Assembly: GCA_001798135.1 (NCBI GenBank)
Contig: MGRJ01000002.1
Location: 1 to 58,817, forward strand
Source of the DNA: Deltaproteobacteria bacterium RIFCSPHIGHO2_02_FULL_40_28
Lineage (GTDB): Bacteria > UBA10199 > 2-12-FULL-40-28
Direction: 5' to 3'
Length of the DNA: 58,817 nucleotides
Shown here piece by piece: positions 2,647 through 56,803 of the stretch. Below the pieces are notes generated by a model, which saw only the letters and a program-made list of their open reading frames with translations, was not told the DNA's origin and did not search any database. Positions within the stretch are counted from its first letter, which is position 1, and the number at the start of each line of letters is the position of its first letter. The position numbers and the translations under genes were made by a program.

Positions 2647-3552
2647 ATGAAACTCATGGCTCCATTATTTTTTACTCTCAGTCTCTTGCAATTTGCGTGC
2701 GGTCCATCACTGGTTTGTCTTAATTTTACCGATTCAATTGTGGATAGTGCGAAAGATACAGTGTCTTTTATCACCTTTGGCGATTGGGGACAAAACAGTG
2801 GAAATCAGCGTGAGGTAGCCAGGGCTATGCATGATTTTTGTTTGACCCAGGATTGTGATTTTGTTGTAACTCTTGGGGATAATTTTTATGAAACAGGGGT
2901 TAGCAGCATTACCGACACTCAATGGTATGATAACTATACTTGTATTTATAGCAGCGTGGGACTTCCTTTTTATGCCTCTCTAGGAAACCATGATCTGGAT
3001 GGCAATATCCAGGCTCAGATTGATTATTCACAAATTGATGAAACCTGGCACATGCCTGGGACATATTATTCAGTTAATTTCCCTGAAAACAGTGAGGCTC
3101 CTGTCATCCAATTTTTTATAATCAACCCCTACGATTTTACAGATACCCAAACCACTTGGTTAACAACCGCCCTGGCTGCAAGCCAAGCCAATTGGAAAAT
3201 TTTGGTTGTTCATACTCCCATTATCAGCAATGGAGCTCATGGCGATGATGCCGCCCAGATTAACTCCCAGCTTTTACCCATCATTTGTAATCAAATTGAT
3301 GTGGTTCTTGCGGGACATGACCATATTTTTTCCCACTTAAGACAAACTCTTGATAGTTGCGCTATCGAGCAAGTAATTATTGGAACAGGCGGCGGCAACT
3401 TGCATTTGGGAGATTTTTCGAATGATACAAGAGTGTTATCGACAGGAACTTTTTTTGGTTTTGGTTGGCTGCAAGCCACTTCCAATCAACTTGATTTTAA
3501 GATGATAACAGCAGAAAAATCAACCTACTATTCGTACCAATGGACCAAATAA
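2647..3552 (+). CDS. Exported metallophosphoesterase (purple acid phosphatase-like)
   Basis: A calcineurin-fold phosphatase of about 301 residues. The dinuclear metal motifs appear in order: FGDWGQ (D-x-W variant of GD-x-H, typical of tartrate-resistant/purple acid phosphatases), LGDNFY, LGNHD, VVHTPI and AGHDH. This order and the GDWG form match Acp5-type enzymes. The N-terminus from the ATG at 2647 is a hydrophobic signal sequence ending near FACGP; the Cys suggests a lipoprotein, but Phe at -2 makes the lipobox atypical. A TTG at 2605 extends the frame but gives a poorer signal sequence. No strong ribosome-binding site is visible. Likely a periplasmic or surface phosphomonoesterase. Confidence 0.8.
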   Translation: MKLMAPLFFTLSLLQFACGPSLVCLNFTDSIVDSAKDTVSFITFGDWGQNSGNQREVARAMHDFCLTQDCDFVVTLGDNFYETGVSSITDTQWYDNYTCIYSSVGLPFYASLGNHDLDGNIQAQIDYSQIDETWHMPGTYYSVNFPENSEAPVIQFFIINPYDFTDTQTTWLTTALAASQANWKILVVHTPIISNGAHGDDAAQINSQLLPIICNQIDVVLAGHDHIFSHLRQTLDSCAIEQVIIGTGGGNLHLGDFSNDTRVLSTGTFFGFGWLQATSNQLDFKMITAEKSTYYSYQWTK

Positions 3553-27671: not shown

Positions 27672-28880
27672 ATGTACTCCCGTGCCTTGGAACAGCTTGT
27701 TTTTGACCCTGAAATAACCCAAAAAATGATCCTGCTTGCCGGCCCTAGGCAAGTGGGCAAAACCACCTTGGCCCAAAAATGGCTGGGAGAAAAAGCTGTT
27801 AATCTTTATTACAATTGGGATGATGAAAAAGTAAGAAGGGAATTTAGGCACGACCCTCATTTTTTTGAATCACAGGCACGGCAAAGCGGCCCCCACGCTA
27901 AAATTGTTTTTGACGAAATTCACAAAATCCCGCGATGGAAAACTATTCTCAAAGGATATTACGATACATTCAAAAAAGATTTTCGTTTTTTCGTGACAGG
28001 AAGTGCCCGTCTGGATTTGTTTCAACGATCTGGTGACAGCATGCTAGGGCGCTACCATCTGCTACATCTGGCTCCGCTTATCCCACACGAGCTTGAGAAA
28101 AAAACAATCCGTGCGTATACTTCTCCAACCGATCTATCTCAACTGGAAAAACCCCCCCTATCACAAAATAGCATTGAGGTTCTTTTAGAATTTTCCGGAT
28201 TCCCCGACATGGTTCAAAAAGCCACGCACCGCAGTCTGAATCTCTGGCATCGCGAATACACGCAAAGGGTTATCCGCGAAGATTTACGCGACTTAACCCG
28301 GATTGCCGATCTCACACGCGGAGAAGCCTTTTTTGACTTACTGCCAACCAAAATTGGCTCTCCCCTATCATTTAATTCCTTACGGGAGGATATGCTGTGT
28401 TCCTATGATGCCGTAAAAACCATAATTCAAGCCTTCGAAAAGTTATCCGTTATTTTTTTAGTTCGTCCTTTCAGTAAAAAAATTAAGAATAGCTTGTCCA
28501 AGGAGCCAAAATTATATTTCTACGACTGGACCCATGTACCAGATACTGGAGCGCGGTTTGAAAATTTTTTGGCCATGCAGCTCAAAGCTTACTGCGATTT
28601 TGTAACAGATGGTGGTTGGGCCCAAATGGACTTATTTTATCTACGGGATAAACAAAAAAATGAGGTGGATTTTTTATTAACGCATAACTTCAAGCCGGTT
28701 TTACTGGTTGAAGCTAAAGCTGGTTCTAACACAGATAACCGTACCCTAGAACATTTTTCAAAACAACTTGGCCCTATTCCATCCATTTGTGTCACTGAAA
28801 AGGAAGGGGTTTATAAAAAACTTGGTGAGAAATCGTGGCTGGTTTCAGCTAATCGTTTTTTTAATCTTTTGTGGTATTAG
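27672..28880 (+). CDS. DUF4143-family AAA ATPase (copy 2)
   Basis: A 402-residue paralogue of the protein at 7516. Walker A AGPRQVGKT near residue 22, Walker B IVFDEIHK, sensor segment FFVTGSARLDLFQRSGDSML, and a C-terminal nuclease-like KNEVDFLLTHNFKPVLLVEAK. The two copies share layout and motifs but differ widely in the middle, so they are not a recent duplication. It follows the kinase-HTH module on the same strand with its own likely promoter, and converges on the pentein gene. Confidence 0.82.
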   Translation: MYSRALEQLVFDPEITQKMILLAGPRQVGKTTLAQKWLGEKAVNLYYNWDDEKVRREFRHDPHFFESQARQSGPHAKIVFDEIHKIPRWKTILKGYYDTFKKDFRFFVTGSARLDLFQRSGDSMLGRYHLLHLAPLIPHELEKKTIRAYTSPTDLSQLEKPPLSQNSIEVLLEFSGFPDMVQKATHRSLNLWHREYTQRVIREDLRDLTRIADLTRGEAFFDLLPTKIGSPLSFNSLREDMLCSYDAVKTIIQAFEKLSVIFLVRPFSKKIKNSLSKEPKLYFYDWTHVPDTGARFENFLAMQLKAYCDFVTDGGWAQMDLFYLRDKQKNEVDFLLTHNFKPVLLVEAKAGSNTDNRTLEHFSKQLGPIPSICVTEKEGVYKKLGEKSWLVSANRFFNLLWY

Positions 28881-28888
28881 TCTAACTC

Positions 28889-31540
28889 TTAAATTTCTCT
28901 CATCAATCTTGCAGCCATGGGTTGTCGTGCCATGCGGTTTGTAGGGGCGGAACAAACTGCGCCCCATTGGGCGGGTTTAGAACCCGCCCCTACAGATTCA
29001 TTCATCAAATCTTGTAAATCCATTTGCATTTGGTCGGGATCAATGTCGGTACGGCTGAGTAAGGCAATGGCTTGTTCAACAAGCGTAGGGGCAGGCCCCT
29101 GTGCCTGCCCATTAACGGGTAACCACTGAGGGTTACCCCTACCGGATTCATCAGCCAGATCTAAAAGATCGGCGTAGTCATCGGGGTCAAAACCATGTTG
29201 AAGAAGTAAGCTACGCAAATCTGTTGCAGGGGCGTGATTCATCACGCCCGTATGATTGGGCGCACGGCCGTGCGCCCCTACAGATCCATCTGGATTCCCT
29301 TGTGACGCTGGGGTTCCAGGTGGATTCCCTTCGGGCAAAGGTTTAAGCCTAACCGTGATTTCATTAGGATAAAGAGCCTCCATGTTTTTTAAAGCTGCAA
29401 ACAAACCATAAGCGAGAAATTCACGATCTTCCAACCGAGAATGGTAAGCCATAATCATTAATACGAGTGGAGCCCAGTATTGGGAATCACGGATAAGAGT
29501 GGTTTCCCCGGAAACTTCAAAAAGCTCCATGGCCCAAGAATGGATCCAATACGCCACTTGCTGTTGGGACGTATCAACTGTAACATCCCTACCTGTTCGA
29601 CCCTGTAAGAGCCTAGCCAAATCAATAAAAGCTTGATCAACTGCCTGTAAGCCAACATCATCCACCAACAAGGTATCTGAAACGGAAACATCTAAAAAAT
29701 CAACGGGTAGGTCACGTGCATGCGCGGCTATTTCTTGTAACTCACGTGGATTGGTTAAAAAACGGCTGGAAGAATTCAAGCGTACCTGGGGAATGGTAGC
29801 CACATAACAGTGGGGACCACCGGTTTCGTAAAACATGAGCCCCTGTTGGGCGGATAAAAAATGAAGGGAACCCGAATAACGGGAACCTCGAAAAGCCTGT
29901 GTCACCGCCTGATCAAAACGCCCTCCTCCATCGAAGCTGGGCAAGTAAATTGTTTTGGCCCCTTTTGTCGCTTGCACTTGAAGTCCATTCAGCGGGGAAA
30001 AACCTCCTGAAGAAACGATGAAGGGAATCGCTGGAACTGAAACAATGCGATGCCCCGTTGCCTTTAATTTGGCTGTTTCGCGATCAATATTCCTTTGGAG
30101 CTGAGAAACCCACCGGTCCAGGAGAAGAATCAAAGGGTTGCCCGCATCCTTATTGGCAACGGCATCCAATAAAAAAAGAAGCAAATGCGCTTCTTCCCCG
30201 ACGGGATTCCCCAGATAACTGGAATATTTTTCAAGAGAAGCCATATATTGCAACCTTACTCTGGCAAGCTCTTCCCCCGTCATGGATTTGAGGAGACGGT
30301 AGCCTTCCGCAAAATTAGCGGCAGCTACCTCACGCCCGGGAAGGGGCATTAAAAACAAATCAATGTGGTACACGGGAAGCCCGCGGACTTCATCTCCCAC
30401 AAAAAATACTCTTCGCCCCAGGGCATTCGCGATCCTTTGCTTCTCTCCCGAAGAATGTTGAGAAGGAAAATTAAGACCCACTAAGGCTGTTTCATCCCCC
30501 ACCAAAACTTGCCCTCCTTCCGGAAAATTTGCCTCGTCCACAACAAAGGGACGTGCAGATGTAAAGTCCAGAAGGCCCATACCTAAAATTGGGTGTAACG
30601 CTATTGACCCTGCAGCCACCATCATGGCCAGCTCCCGCCCATTAACAAAACCAAAACGAACCTGATCCGCCAGCCATTCAACCTTATCGTATTCAGAATA
30701 AGCTGTGGGTTTTAGAAGAACCAAACGGATGCGCTCGCGCTCCCGGGAATCAAATTCCACATTGAGAATTTCTAAAAATTCCTGAATATGAAGTGCATCC
30801 ACAGCCACAACTGCTGTCATGGCGGGTTGAGTTTTTAAAAAAGTTTTTAGAAATTCGATCTTGGCACCCCAAATACGGGGGGAACCCCTACCAAAACTCA
30901 CGGCCACTCCCGAGGAGGCTTGGGAGGTATCAGAGCTAACACGAAATAAGGAATGATTAGAATCCACGGGTTTGGGAGACTTGGGGCTTTGAGTTTGAAG
31001 TCTTTGTGCTAAGAATTCATCGTGGGCTCTTAAGCTAGGAAAAGCTCGGATCAATTCCGCAGTCACCTGGGAAGTATTAATTCTGTTGTAAGCTAGCTCG
31101 CTCCTCCAATGCAAAACAGCTTGATAAAAAGGGTCGATGCTCCGCAAATACTCGCTCCAAAAAGCTCCCCCTTCTCTCATAGCCTGGCCAATAATGGGAA
31201 TAATACTGTTAAGAACGTAGCGTATGAGGGCATGTTGAACGGGTAGGGGTAATTGCTCCACCAAGACAATCACCTCTGGATCATACCATGGGAAAAAACC
31301 TGTATCGGCTACTCTCGCAGAGGCTGGAGCTAGAGGAGATTCGTGCGCAAAGGAAACAGCCACGGGACGACGTGATCCACTCGCATCTAAAAGTCCTCTG
31401 TCGCGTAAAACGCGAACCAAGTCATCAAGTGAAATGTTTGCATCACCATCAACACGAATTGTGGAAAATGGTTCATCCCTTGCGGGAGCAACTGCCGGAG
31501 GGGCTTCCCCAAGCCTTCTAGGTTGAATGCGATCGGCCAT
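28889..31540 (-). CDS. 883-residue protein with a pentein (arginine/agmatine deiminase-like) core
   Basis: The pentein signature is visible in order: EGGQVLVGDETALVGLN with E341, LPVYHIDLFLMPL with H392 and D394 (the HxD pair), a late LNGLQVQATKGAKTIYLPSF strand pair, and GGPHCYV with Cys578 as nucleophile. In arginine deiminase and agmatine deiminase this fold attacks guanidinium groups. The residue after EGG is Asp in arginine deiminases and is Gln344 here. A stretch of about 80 residues between the HxD pair and the late strands is an unusual insert, and some 320 N-terminal and 290 C-terminal residues have no recognisable domain. There is no signal peptide. Four GTAGGGGC-type repeats are read through in frame (near residues 217, 754, 800 and 850). 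The SD-like AAGG precedes ATG 31540. Confidence 0.6.
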   Translation of the reverse strand: MADRIQPRRLGEAPPAVAPARDEPFSTIRVDGDANISLDDLVRVLRDRGLLDASGSRRPVAVSFAHESPLAPASARVADTGFFPWYDPEVIVLVEQLPLPVQHALIRYVLNSIIPIIGQAMREGGAFWSEYLRSIDPFYQAVLHWRSELAYNRINTSQVTAELIRAFPSLRAHDEFLAQRLQTQSPKSPKPVDSNHSLFRVSSDTSQASSGVAVSFGRGSPRIWGAKIEFLKTFLKTQPAMTAVVAVDALHIQEFLEILNVEFDSRERERIRLVLLKPTAYSEYDKVEWLADQVRFGFVNGRELAMMVAAGSIALHPILGMGLLDFTSARPFVVDEANFPEGGQVLVGDETALVGLNFPSQHSSGEKQRIANALGRRVFFVGDEVRGLPVYHIDLFLMPLPGREVAAANFAEGYRLLKSMTGEELARVRLQYMASLEKYSSYLGNPVGEEAHLLLFLLDAVANKDAGNPLILLLDRWVSQLQRNIDRETAKLKATGHRIVSVPAIPFIVSSGGFSPLNGLQVQATKGAKTIYLPSFDGGGRFDQAVTQAFRGSRYSGSLHFLSAQQGLMFYETGGPHCYVATIPQVRLNSSSRFLTNPRELQEIAAHARDLPVDFLDVSVSDTLLVDDVGLQAVDQAFIDLARLLQGRTGRDVTVDTSQQQVAYWIHSWAMELFEVSGETTLIRDSQYWAPLVLMIMAYHSRLEDREFLAYGLFAALKNMEALYPNEITVRLKPLPEGNPPGTPASQGNPDGSVGAHGRAPNHTGVMNHAPATDLRSLLLQHGFDPDDYADLLDLADESGRGNPQWLPVNGQAQGPAPTLVEQAIALLSRTDIDPDQMQMDLQDLMNESVGAGSKPAQWGAVCSAPTNRMARQPMAARLMREI
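28941..28993. repeat. Family D palindrome (GTAGGGGCGG / CCGCCCCTAC), in frame
   Basis: Perfect 10-base terminal arms and internal pairs such as GGGCGGGTTT with AACCCGCCC. It is read by the pentein gene as VGAGSKPAQWGAVCSAPT near residues 850-867. Confidence 0.85.
29085..29142. repeat. Family D palindrome, double hairpin, in frame
   Basis: It begins GTAGGGGC and ends CCCCTAC. Inside are two hairpins, GGGGCAGG with CCTGCCC and GGGTAACC with GGTTACCC. It is translated in the pentein gene near residues 800-819. Confidence 0.85.
29226..29281. repeat. Family D palindrome, double hairpin, in frame
   Basis: Two hairpins, GGGGCGTGAT with ATCACGCCC and GGGCGCAC with GTGCGCCC, ending CCCCTAC. It is read in frame near residues 754-772 of the pentein protein. 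Confidence 0.85.
30876..30891. repeat. Short family D remnant, in frame
   Basis: CGGGGGGAACCCCTAC: an incomplete copy (minus strand GTAGGGGTTCCCC) within the pentein gene near residue 217-222. Confidence 0.5.
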
Positions 31541-51939: not shown

Positions 51940-54900
51940 ATGGGAGATACACCTATACCACCAATTGGCCTTGGGCCTGCCCTTTCGGGGCCTGTGGTTA
52001 TTCCACCAGACGAAGGTGAAGGTCCGTCATCTGTAGCACAGGCAGGAGTAACACTTCCAAATGCAGGCAGTGCAGAAATTCTGCGTGTACTTGAAACAGG
52101 AGGCTCGGGTTTTCTTGTGGAAGGTTCTCACTACCTTTTGCGTGGAGCGGGTGAAAGTTTGCCTGCCAGGTTTGGTACACATCAATTTTGGGTAACTCCA
52201 TCTGGTGAAAGTCGTGAAAGAGTGTTTTGGGAAGATGCTCTGGTATTTAATCGAGATGGGACACATCTTGTAGGCTTATGGAACCATGGATTTTTCAAGC
52301 GCACGAGTGACTTTCAAACCATTCATTCTCCCTTGGGCAATGATTACTTGGTAAGTACACGCCCTGATGATTGGGGTCGATATAAAATTTTCAATCAACA
52401 ATCTCGTGTCCGCGGTGGCGATGCCCTTGTTCTTTACCGCTCTTCTGATGAAATGTTTAATCCACCAGAAAGTTTATCTTTGGGAGGACAAACTTGGTAT
52501 TCTGATAACAGAGGACGTTTAGCTCTTCATCACATTGCTGAAATTCCCAATCTAGAATTTTTTTTCGACCAACTACCTACTGTTTACAATTCCGAAACGG
52601 CCAGGCTTGTTTTTGAATCTGATTCCTATCGTCCTGTAAGCGTTGATTTATCTCTTCAAGGCAGAAAACCCACTTCTGTTGAAGTAACCAATGAAGAACG
52701 CCAAAGAACTATTGGCCGTAGAGAGCAAGCACAAAGTACCACCTACCCCACACGAAGACTTTCTATTTTATGGGGAGAACAACTCGATATTACCGTAAAT
52801 ACCACAACAGGTGAGGTTACCACCCAAACACGAGGAGAAATGCTTAATGGCAATCCCTTGCGATTTGAGGGCTTAGCCCGCTTTGCTCAAATTTTGCGAG
52901 AAAGCCATCGAACTCAAGGAGATGATTTTGAAAGTTGGGCCAACTCTCTTCTTGATCGCCATCACTTCAATCCTCGAACCGCTCAACTCAAAATTGGAAA
53001 TGAAACTATTGCTCTTTCTCTTCCAGGATATCCTTCAGTCACTTTAGAGAGGGGTGCAAAAAAAGAAATAGCAGGCCAAAAAGTTTATACATACCGTTTT
53101 GTCTGGGGCCAAAAATTAGACGTGCATGGAATAAATCATGAAGGTTATTTTCAACTGCAACCTTCTGGCACAACCATGCAAGGGTATCCTTTGCAATACT
53201 CTACATCAGGACGAGGTCTTGAAGATTTAGCTCAGAGTATTTATGCCTTTCAAGAAAGAGCACAGGGGGTGCGCACTGTTCTTCCCCAAGGAAGAGTAGC
53301 GGAAATTGAAGATACACCCTTAAGAGCTTTGTTAGACAAGGCAGATAAGGCTACCGCCAATTGGGTGCGTTATGAAAAAATTGGAGATGATTTTAAACGT
53401 GTAGAAACTCCCAGTGGAGTTAAAAGACAACTGCATCAAGAAGGCATTCATACTTGGAACGATTTAAAGCGGTTTGCTGAAATAGCTTTAGAAAATGCAG
53501 AGGGGCGGTCGGTAGAATTAGTTGTAGAACAATATAATTTTGAATCCCTGGAACCTCCACACGATATGCTTTGGGAGCTTGCCCAAAGAATGACTTACCA
53601 ATTTCCTAACCAAGCTTTTTCTCTTGTGGTTCAAGGTGATCCTCTAGATCCTGCCACTGTTTACACCATCGATAAACAAGATATTCATTCTTCTTTAACT
53701 GAAACAAACATACAAGCCATGGCCTTTTGGGAACAAAATGAAATTACTGGTGCCCTAGCAGCCGAATTACAAACAACACCAACTCTCTTTGCTCTTTATC
53801 AAGCCATTCAAAGAGTTGGCAGAGACCATGCTCATGGGCAAGATAATCTGGGAGTTTTTTTAGAAGCTGTTTTTAACGAACACAACACAATAGCTCCCGG
53901 GATTACAAGAGCCCAAAGTATTCCACTGGATAGACGCACTCAAGTTTTATCCCTTTTAGAAGATTTAAAAGCCACCTTGCGCATAACAGCTCAAATTGCA
54001 GCTTCAGAGCACACCTTAGAAGTTCCTGCGGGTGCTTTTTATTGGGATCCAGTGGATACCATTCTGCGAGCGCACTCAGCCAATACATCTTCGGGAAATG
54101 CTAGACTCTCTTTAGGTGCAGGACAAATGATTGCCACTTTGGAGCTTTCGAGAAAGCTCATGGATTTGGGAAAACTACCTCTCGATTATCGGCTGATTGC
54201 CACCGATCTTTACAAACCAGCCAAAGCTCTCATCTGGGAAATTAATGAAAAAGGAACCAATGAATATGCCTTGAAACAAACACCAGTTAATCCCATGGGG
54301 CGAAAAAAAATCTATGTTTACAATAGCCGCCAGCGTGATGAAGTGATGAGGCGGTTTAGGCCCGATGCCGTTTTATTAAATGTTCCTGCCGGTGCTTTAA
54401 TGCCCGCCTTAGATGATGCCCTCATTCAAACAGCCAGGGGTTTTCATCCTGTTATTGCTACACCCGCTAAAGCCTATGCTGATCGAACGGGCCCAGCAAT
54501 GTCAACTCCTCGTGGACCCCTTGATGAAGAAGAAGCTTATTCTTACGAGTGGCTTATTCCTTACTTAGACATGTACTTTAGACTTTTAGGAAGAGATGTC
54601 ACCTTGGCCAATAATTTGGGTGTGATGGCTGGATTTTTTGAAGCTCCTAAAATTTTAAAAGGTGAAGAAGTCAACATGACTGTAGCAGCACCTACTTTTC
54701 GTCCACTCGGCATTTTAGCACGTGGCATGACCATGGAGCCCATGGATGAGCGGCACCGCCAAGCTAATTGGATGATTGATAAGCTTGATCATGGTACTGT
54801 TGAAAAACAACGTTTGTTGGGCTTGGAATTAATCCCCAGTTTGGAAATGGCTGCTTTTTTGATGGCAGGCGGTGCTAATAAAAATTTTCTTACCTATCGA

Positions 54901-56760
54901 TCGTCTCGCCTCATCATGCGTGATATTTTAAAACCTGGTAGAAGATTAGAAGATCCCGAACGAGCCGCGGTTTATACTGTTCTTGAAAATGAGAAAAGAC
55001 AAAACGTGGAAATTGGGGAAGAAATTACAGCAAGAGTAGCAAACCATTATGGGATGAGCACTTATCACTTAAAAACTCCTGATGGTTTGGTGGATGATTA
55101 TCGCAATTGTTTACCCAACAGCTTGGAAGGTTTGTTTATCATCAGAGGTACCCTGGCTGATGTTATTAGAGCTCAAGATAGAGAAGGTTTAAGAAACTTA
55201 ATTCGACGCATCAAAGATAAGGAATCTCTCAATGACTCCCGCAGAGGGCCCGTAGCAGAAGGAACCAGAAATGCCCGAGCGGGCTATATTGCCGAAATTA
55301 TCAGTTATGCCTACCAAGCTTGGGCTAGTAGGGAGAGCCCGGCTTACTATCCTGCTGGTATTGCACCCTATGCCAACTTCGAAGCTTTTTATGCTGATTT
55401 TTATCCAAGAGAATGGGTACAAGAAGGTGAAAAAGGAATTAAGGGTCTTTTAGCTTTTGCAAGAGCACATGCCATTGTGCTTCCCAAAATGGTTTACAGT
55501 GCCGAAGCAGAATACGATCACACAGCTCCCTATCATGCTCACTTTACTGCTCCAGAAGAACGTAAAATTTCCTATACCCCACCAACAAGAAATCTTCTTA
55601 ACAGAAGATGGCATATTCCTCGTGCAGTAGAAATTTATTTCCGTGCAGAACAACGCAAACAAAAAATTGAGGTTTTGCCAAATAATTATAACTCGCTTAG
55701 CCTTGAGAGACAAGTTGATCCTGTTTGGGGACTTCCCAAACCATGGGTTACTTATACCAATCTCACCATTCAACAAATGGCCTTGGAATTTAATTTGAGA
55801 ACTGCGCTTGCCATGCGGCCTGATGCCCAATTTATGAGGCAAAGTCTGCAAGAATTCATCAAACTTTTGGAGCCTCTTCAAGAAGATATTGGGCGTTTTC
55901 CAGAAATTACACAAAGACTCATAGCCATTCGCAACATTGCCAACAATTTGGATGTACTTTTAAATGCGCCAAGCATCCCTCCAAGAAATTTAATGCTGGC
56001 TGCTAAAGCTTTTCAAGAAGCCACTCAAGACTGGGTTGATTTATTTACTGAACGCATTAAAAACACAACAGAGTTAGCCAAACGTTTTATTAAAAACGCA
56101 CAAAAATTTCATGATGTAGAACTGGCCTTGCGAGATAAATTAGGTTTGGCTCCTTCGGTTTCTGTGAGCCACCTTTCAACTTTACCTCCACCGACAGTAA
56201 CACCACATGGTCCTGTGGTAGCAGTTGCTACTCCCCCAGACGTTGAAGAAACTCCAGCTCCAAGTCCTGATGATGGTTCTCCACGAGGTTCTGTGGTGGA
56301 TGGAATAGTTTGGGGAGGAGCCGACCTAATGCAAGAGGGCGGCCACAGATGGCCGCCCCTACATGAGATAACTTCTGGAGCTCTTGCTTTAAAGGAAAAA
56401 CTGTTGCCTCCTCCCATTGCACAAGCCGCAACGCCACCACCTGAGTTACCTCAAACTTTTGAAGATTTTAGAACCTTGCTTGTAAAACGTGGGTTTACAG
56501 ATCAATTGGATTATTGGGATGAAGAAAGTTTTGACACGATCAAAGAAGATCCTCTTTTTGCAGAATTAGTTGCAGCCATTCAAACTCAAAATCAAGATGA
56601 AGCAGAAGAAATTTTAAACCACATTGATGATTGGTTTACAGCCTATGGGGATGCTGCATCAGAGGGACATACCATTCCAAAAACAGGAATGGTAAGAACT
56701 ACCAATGGGGCAAGATTAACGGTTTTTCAATCGGTGCCGGGCACGCTTGCAAGCCATTGA
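51940..56760 (+). CDS. 1606-residue protein with internal duplication and Rossmann-like region
   Basis: It starts MGDTPIPPIGLGPALSG with AAGGA seven bases before. There is no signal peptide. Two related segments occur at about residues 267-322 and 381-437 (RLSILWGEQLDITVN...LARFAQIL against YRFVWGQKLDVHGIN...LEDLAQSIY): an internal duplication of about 60 residues. Around 720-830, LSLGAGQMIATLELSRKL then YRLIATDLYKP and PDAVLLNVPAGAL look like a SAM-dependent methyltransferase fold, with weak support. The rest is mostly alpha-helical with no recognised domain. A family D repeat (56335-56362) is read in frame in the Pro-rich C-terminal linker. The position after ABC genes may mean cotranscription. 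Confidence 0.55.
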   Translation: MGDTPIPPIGLGPALSGPVVIPPDEGEGPSSVAQAGVTLPNAGSAEILRVLETGGSGFLVEGSHYLLRGAGESLPARFGTHQFWVTPSGESRERVFWEDALVFNRDGTHLVGLWNHGFFKRTSDFQTIHSPLGNDYLVSTRPDDWGRYKIFNQQSRVRGGDALVLYRSSDEMFNPPESLSLGGQTWYSDNRGRLALHHIAEIPNLEFFFDQLPTVYNSETARLVFESDSYRPVSVDLSLQGRKPTSVEVTNEERQRTIGRREQAQSTTYPTRRLSILWGEQLDITVNTTTGEVTTQTRGEMLNGNPLRFEGLARFAQILRESHRTQGDDFESWANSLLDRHHFNPRTAQLKIGNETIALSLPGYPSVTLERGAKKEIAGQKVYTYRFVWGQKLDVHGINHEGYFQLQPSGTTMQGYPLQYSTSGRGLEDLAQSIYAFQERAQGVRTVLPQGRVAEIEDTPLRALLDKADKATANWVRYEKIGDDFKRVETPSGVKRQLHQEGIHTWNDLKRFAEIALENAEGRSVELVVEQYNFESLEPPHDMLWELAQRMTYQFPNQAFSLVVQGDPLDPATVYTIDKQDIHSSLTETNIQAMAFWEQNEITGALAAELQTTPTLFALYQAIQRVGRDHAHGQDNLGVFLEAVFNEHNTIAPGITRAQSIPLDRRTQVLSLLEDLKATLRITAQIAASEHTLEVPAGAFYWDPVDTILRAHSANTSSGNARLSLGAGQMIATLELSRKLMDLGKLPLDYRLIATDLYKPAKALIWEINEKGTNEYALKQTPVNPMGRKKIYVYNSRQRDEVMRRFRPDAVLLNVPAGALMPALDDALIQTARGFHPVIATPAKAYADRTGPAMSTPRGPLDEEEAYSYEWLIPYLDMYFRLLGRDVTLANNLGVMAGFFEAPKILKGEEVNMTVAAPTFRPLGILARGMTMEPMDERHRQANWMIDKLDHGTVEKQRLLGLELIPSLEMAAFLMAGGANKNFLTYRSSRLIMRDILKPGRRLEDPERAAVYTVLENEKRQNVEIGEEITARVANHYGMSTYHLKTPDGLVDDYRNCLPNSLEGLFIIRGTLADVIRAQDREGLRNLIRRIKDKESLNDSRRGPVAEGTRNARAGYIAEIISYAYQAWASRESPAYYPAGIAPYANFEAFYADFYPREWVQEGEKGIKGLLAFARAHAIVLPKMVYSAEAEYDHTAPYHAHFTAPEERKISYTPPTRNLLNRRWHIPRAVEIYFRAEQRKQKIEVLPNNYNSLSLERQVDPVWGLPKPWVTYTNLTIQQMALEFNLRTALAMRPDAQFMRQSLQEFIKLLEPLQEDIGRFPEITQRLIAIRNIANNLDVLLNAPSIPPRNLMLAAKAFQEATQDWVDLFTERIKNTTELAKRFIKNAQKFHDVELALRDKLGLAPSVSVSHLSTLPPPTVTPHGPVVAVATPPDVEETPAPSPDDGSPRGSVVDGIVWGGADLMQEGGHRWPPLHEITSGALALKEKLLPPPIAQAATPPPELPQTFEDFRTLLVKRGFTDQLDYWDEESFDTIKEDPLFAELVAAIQTQNQDEAEEILNHIDDWFTAYGDAASEGHTIPKTGMVRTTNGARLTVFQSVPGTLASH
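56335..56362. repeat. Family D palindrome, in frame in the 1606-residue gene
   Basis: GGGCGGCC and GGCCGCCC pair around ACAGAT, ending CCCCTAC. It is read as EGGHRWPPLH in the linker. Confidence 0.8.
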
Positions 56761-56779
56761 AAAATAACATAAACCATTT

Positions 56780-56803
56780 CGGGCGGGATAACCCCGCCCC
56801 TAC
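56780..56803. repeat. Family D palindrome between the 1606- and 635-residue genes
   Basis: GGGCGGGATAACCCCGCCCC followed by TAC; it lies in the 75-base spacer, 33 bases before the HD-protein ATG. Confidence 0.8.

Follow-up and report, generated by a model that had tools for sequence, protein, structure and literature searches.

Three GTAG-tagged REP dimers lie in frame within an orphan gene of Deltaproteobacteria bacterium RIFCSPHIGHO2_02_FULL_40_28

Results

Three palindromic units in one open reading frame

Three palindromic units of an 883-aa ORF in Deltaproteobacteria bacterium RIFCSPHIGHO2_02_FULL_40_28 are very probably GTAG-tagged REP dimers that were inserted in the loops of an expressed gene with the reading frame kept, most likely mobilised by a transposase of the same genome. 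The features of the window, which is the whole stretch of DNA analysed (58,817 nt), and of the contig with the transposase genes are the following.

28889..31540, minus strand: host ORF, an orphan of 883 aa, recognised by its open frame and coding signal
28941..28993, minus strand: unit 1, REP head-to-head dimer of 53 nt, residues 849-866, phase 0
29085..29142, minus strand: unit 2, REP head-to-head dimer of 58 nt, residues 799-818, phase 1
29226..29281, minus strand: unit 3, REP head-to-head dimer of 56 nt, residues 753-771, phase 0
56337..56362, minus strand: single REP hairpin of the same family, E 1.2e-6, fold z -6.29
56781..56803, minus strand: single REP hairpin, fold z -3.38, just downstream of ORF 51940-56757 (plus strand)
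Contig C5, L025:1741-2373 and 2869-3420: two REP-type transposase ORFs, similar and 1.1 kb apart

All three units are located within the last 131 residues of the host ORF, and each consists of a GTAG-hairpin, a short spacer and a hairpin-CTAC with the tags facing outward. Unit 1 encodes VGAGSKPAQWGAVCSAPT and has both its GTAG and CTAC tags intact. Unit 2 encodes GRGNPQWLPVNGQAQGPAPT, and its stems are close to the two stem types of the dimers found within the transposase genes. Unit 3, laid out as GTAGGGGC hairpin, spacer and hairpin GCCCCTGC, encodes VGAHGRAPNHTGVMNHAPA and has one tag mutated to GCAG. The predicted unit-spanning peptides of the 883-aa protein include VGAGSKPAQWGAVCSAPT and NGQAQGPAPTLVEQ. 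The reading is GTA-GGG-GCG (VGA...) in units 1 and 3 and, one base shifted, xGT-AGG-GGT (RGN...) in unit 2, which amounts to two of the three possible phases.

Folding of the single-stranded DNA gave z scores of -4.36, -3.63 and -4.95 for units 1, 2 and 3, respectively. A covariance model of the hairpin, which had unit 2 sequences among its inputs, recovered the unit 2 hairpins in a whole-genome search with E = 1.6e-7 and 2.1e-6. All 12 model sequences start with GTAG and continue into a hairpin whose stem measures about 8 bp and whose loop measures 6 nt, and units 2 and 3 fold likewise. The preliminary description had counted four units of one palindromic family in this gene, read in different frames. 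Three of these hold as family dimers: they fold, and the open frame encloses them completely, towards the C-terminal end of the gene. The use of different frames was borne out. For the proposed fourth unit, a remnant of 16 bp (30876-30891, minus strand), family membership is not supported: it is without a family hairpin, is absent from the covariance-model matches at E ≤ 1 and has a fold z of -1.48, with 22 of 200 shuffles as good.

The 883-aa ORF had no Pfam or NCBIfam match and no homologue in 60 genomes (46 genomes of the class included) or in the GTDB r220 contigs. A protein model of low confidence (mean pLDDT 39.7) places the units between predicted helices, and a structural reading of the protein was dropped because the model was too poor. 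The protein segments beside the units look alike (DPD....L.DL..ES). An origin of the three units by tandem duplication of a unit together with its flank was considered and rejected, since the DNA similarity was matched by 230 of 1000 codon shuffles.

The units lie inside coding DNA

The 3′ intergenic space of convergent genes is a classic location of REPs. The neighbouring gene at 27672-28880 on the plus strand, an AAA_14/DUF4143 ATPase, is convergent with the host ORF and ends 8 bp away. Because this is the usual REP setting, it was tested whether the ORF once ended before the units, so that the frame would now read through REPs of an intergenic space. Codon log-odds were trained on the other ORFs of the window. 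Read in the ORF frame, the two inter-unit segments reached 0.50 and 0.57 bits per codon; for gene segments drawn at random, the median was 0.35 in frame and -0.60 in the +1 frame. The other same-strand frames of the inter-unit segments scored from -0.8 to -1.8 and contained stops. The segments are thus coding in the ORF frame, and the units lie inside coding DNA and not beyond a lost stop. The 16 codons past unit 1 gave a weak and ambiguous score of 0.17, which would suit an earlier end of the gene, but read-through could account only for unit 1 and the tail. Read-through past an old stop is therefore quite unlikely.

The element family in the genome and the class

The preliminary description had proposed a whole-genome search for the family and had noted further members near 56335 and 56780. 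Both of the latter are real hairpins (56337-56362 and 56781-56803), the first of which lies in ORF 51940-56757 on the plus strand, encoding 1606 aa and having no Pfam match. In the 2.16 Mb genome, 24 exact-ended dimers, defined as GTAGGGGC, 20-45 nt and GCCCCTAC, were detected against 0 for the reversed control pattern, and the covariance model gave 86 matches at E ≤ 1. A further count covered 505 kb of stretches that were picked for carrying elements and so are uninformative on the rest of the genome. It yielded 120 half-elements, which make up 83 elements, and ORFs of at least 100 aa contain 45 of these. The elements are either 28 or about 50-60 nt long. Their stems are highly variable, yet pairing is kept. 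At many sites a double-foot form, GTAGGGGCACGGCGCGCCGTGCCCCTAC, is present, in which one hairpin has GTAG and CTAC tags on either side. Exact-ended dimers were also found in 18 of 46 genomes of the class.

The anatomy is that of the GTAG REP superfamily, in which hairpins with 5-13 bp and a loop of 2-20 nt have an unpaired GTAG at their foot and the copies are many, dispersed and frequently arranged as head-to-head dimers.

One ORF of 5574 aa (G000 C4:2891-19612; L157, L137) contained 14 in-frame places of the REP family, including three near-identical 63-nt copies, and displayed weak Pfam matches only (HopA1 family, 31.7 bits, and HEAT). In-frame elements were also seen in an ORF of 5243 aa (G000 C31:92999-108727) and in its neighbour of at least 1994 aa (C31:109019-115000; L145, L181).

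A target-site duplication was looked for and was absent. The flank preference is weak, with A/T at position -4 in 75 of 94 cases. A sequence-specific target was rejected, as the GATG(A/G)ATC-like flank common to the three window units is not family-wide. In relatives (L269-L308), the length of dimers within ORFs was 1 mod 3 in 24 of 27 cases versus 10 of 23 for dimers outside ORFs (p = 0.0008), which would fit a gain of two further bases with each insertion. An 'element length + 2 nt' rule was nevertheless discarded, because the own genome shows none (10/17 in ORFs versus 11/20 outside).

Copies in conserved proteins

The preliminary description had called for a comparison with orthologues. 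Such a comparison was possible for a copy in NadC (quinolinate phosphoribosyltransferase), which has 61 residues across the insert where 20 of 29 relatives have 51; the gain of 10 residues equals the 28-nt palindrome plus 2 nt. The other 9 relatives have 54-62 residues, with unrelated extra residues in the same loop, so the loop tolerates change. The peptide is also absent from the best solved relatives of NadC. With most relatives being without it, the comparison supports insertion. A second, different GC-rich repeat-like stretch (LSPALPPQGGG...) was observed in frame in another loop of NadC (L153:1485-2381), at about C4:63040-63080.

Further copies of the family were detected in XerD, Mfd and TatD. 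XerD and Mfd displayed a partial net gain, smaller than that of NadC, and the loop of TatD has kept its length, the element-encoded stretch replacing loop residues. The replacement in TatD and the partial gain in Mfd and XerD mean that simple insertion does not fit every copy; some copies have thus been trimmed or have taken the place of loop residues. Apparent other in-frame repeats were seen in the same loops of TatD (L255) and XerD (L262, L258) from relatives, which suggests that these loops may have been invaded repeatedly. In-frame insertion in unrelated protein genes is accordingly seen by orthologue comparison for NadC and by position for the others.

These copies also bear on whether the palindromes are kept for a function, either because their RNA hairpins tune the mRNA or because the encoded linkers are of use to the protein. 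Effects of REPs on mRNA stability are known, the hairpins of the window units are strong and the units are positioned between helices in the low-confidence model. The same family is, however, found in unrelated genes as well as at intergenic sites, with stems and encoded peptides that differ, and NadC, XerD and TatD of relatives are without the element peptides. Retention for a function is for these reasons improbable. That the residues are ancestral and palindromic by happenstance has hardly any probability left: the window gene has no orthologue that would exclude it directly, but dozens of other sites, many of which are outside ORFs, carry close element copies, and three family dimers within 341 nt cannot be put down to chance in coding sequence.

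A REP-type transposase in the same genome

The Pfam domain Y1_Tnp (PF01797) was found at three places in the genome, two of them on elements in contig C5. Both C5 ORFs contain an identical intact dimer in frame, directly after MPNHIHGIIGL (the HUH motif), and a further element copy precedes the second ORF by about 60 bp. An association of the family with a RAYT gene is thereby present, since the Y1_Tnp ORFs themselves contain elements. The dimer and its flanks are common to both ORFs, as if recently duplicated. The stem types of the transposase dimers are among the commonest of the dispersed ones.

The best NCBIfam model for the C5 ORFs was REP_Tyr_transpos at 59 bits, under the 80-bit cut-off, with the match starting just past the in-gene insert. 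A structure model built with 40 sequences reached a mean pLDDT of 83.7, and in it the REP-encoded stretch forms a coil of lower confidence that links the HUH strand to the helix after it. A Foldseek search with the predicted fold retrieved 4ER8, a RAYT with bound REP hairpin (E 1.6e-6, TM 0.54/0.59), with the ISDra2 and IS608 transposases among the surrounding matches. The motifs PNHIH and LWQRNYYEH are present, and the Y motif YINDNP fits the class 2 Y---NP but not exactly the subclass 2.4 YIxNNP.

Eighty homologues were fetched by peptide patterns from outside the insert, and 64 of them were parsable. In 56 of the 64, from many phyla, GTAGGGGC or GCCCCTAC was located between HUH and Tyr; the motif density was 7.9 per kb within this interval versus 0.37 per kb outside. 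A few homologues were without an element in that position (L072, L076). For two homologues, in G061 and G062, many other sites of the respective genome carry the same stems as the in-gene dimer. The in-frame copy within the transposase was not retained as a novelty, having already been described (PMC6006769).

Codon phase of the elements

In the own genome, 30 of 32 half-elements within ORFs have the GTAG tag in phase 0; counted by host ORF of exact-ended elements, the figure is 13 of 15. An open frame is nearly as frequent in phase 1 (43 of 52 half-elements) as in phase 0 (50 of 52). The third phase is open in 4 of 52, being almost always closed because TAG falls in frame. Among the transposases, the tag is in phase 0 in 44 of 48, whereas in relatives the ratio of phase 0 to the rest is 15 to 10 (25 host ORFs). 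A phase bias as a general rule was therefore rejected, being strong in the own genome and weak in relatives.

The excess of phase 0 may come from selection on the peptides, from the shared ancestry of the giant-ORF copies or from chance in a small set. As the family is carried as coding sequence in its own transposase gene, the elements might also be selected to stay translatable, by which the population would be pre-adapted to invade genes, mostly in the phase V-G-A. We regard this as unlikely, if conceivable: the mere 15 to 10 in relatives means that the bias may be local or selected at the peptide level.

Discussion

The preferred reading, insertion of REP dimers by a transposase of the same genome, may be depicted as follows. 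The mobiliser is most likely the genome's own REP-type HUH/Tyr transposase, similar to TnpA_Y1 subclass 2.4. It would bind the folded GTAG hairpin on single-stranded DNA, the tag and the hairpin being the binding and cleavage determinants in the TnpA_REP enzymes that have been studied (PMC8266576), and copies would enter exposed single-stranded DNA elsewhere. Most insertions would be lost, the survivors being those that keep the frame and are located in surface loops, and the encoded peptides would be tolerated rather than useful; the loss of most insertions and the neutrality of the peptides are what we infer. Three copies would have been retained in the window gene because they left its frame open.

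GTAG REPs, their head-to-head dimers and in-frame REPs were reported in Opitutus terrae, Thauera and others together with a link to RAYTs (Di Nocera 2013, PMC3733652), and intragenic REPs were often located in DNA repair genes (PMC3733652). The family described here shares with this superfamily the tag, the head-to-head heterodimers with short spacers, the many copies and the association with a transposase, as well as the in-frame location in genes including those of DNA repair, more than one element per gene and 20-30 aa per dimer. The likeness to families 1-24 of that study is one of anatomy and occurrence as described. The hosts differ from those reported there and include NadC, Mfd, XerD, TatD and the 5574-aa ORF with 14 element places.

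TnpA_Y1 subclass 2.4 (RAYT group 4) has long and 'double-foot' REPs as well as in-frame REPs within tnpA between HuH and Tyr (Quentin 2018, PMC6006769). In-gene REPs are described as unique to this subclass, and the E. coli enzyme belongs to subclass 2.2 (PMC6006769). The same paper cites insertions in other genes; a description of the present genome was not seen in it. Subclass 2.4 and the present system have in common the motifs NH[IV]H, WQ and Y---NP, long GTAG REPs whose foot is G-C-rich, 28-mers of the double-foot type, an in-frame REP in tnpA between HuH and Tyr and a distribution scattered across phyla. The tyrosine motif deviates (YINDNP here, YIxNNP in the published consensus), and the likeness is one of features. 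The E. coli TnpA_REP/RAYT (PDB 4ER8) is alike in the HUH/Tyr fold and the GTAG-tagged hairpin, but the E. coli REPs have a bulged stem and their enzyme is of subclass 2.2.

The preliminary description had compared the units with the protein-invading palindromic elements of Rickettsia, which likewise are palindromic repeats located in frame at tolerated sites of unrelated protein genes (PMC10969869). The comparison is apt as to the effect, in-frame palindromes in more than one phase outside Rickettsia, but not as to the family, which here is a GTAG REP with a transposase. Two of the Rickettsia elements, RPE-4 and RPE-6, are placed in the CGTC superfamily, which has no associated transposase (PMC3733652). 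The Rickettsia elements are described as about 150 bp or, in RPE-4 and RPE-6, CGTC-tagged, without a transposase or a GTAG tag (PMC3733652, PMC10969869), whereas the present ones are GTAG-tagged, are 28 or about 50-60 nt long and have a transposase in the genome. In-frame REPs outside Rickettsia have already been reported (PMC3733652; PMC6006769). A literature search by the string GTAGGGGC found nothing relevant among the papers listed. The finding is real and well explained, a rich and fresh example of a described system and no new kind of element.

It is a dense example, from outside Rickettsia, of mobile DNA that adds residues to apparently working proteins, and the genome also encodes the likely transposase. 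As the element-free state is available in relatives for the conserved enzymes NadC, Mfd and XerD, the fate of the encoded peptides is testable. The orphan genes and giant ORFs of such genomes may owe many of their residues to REPs.
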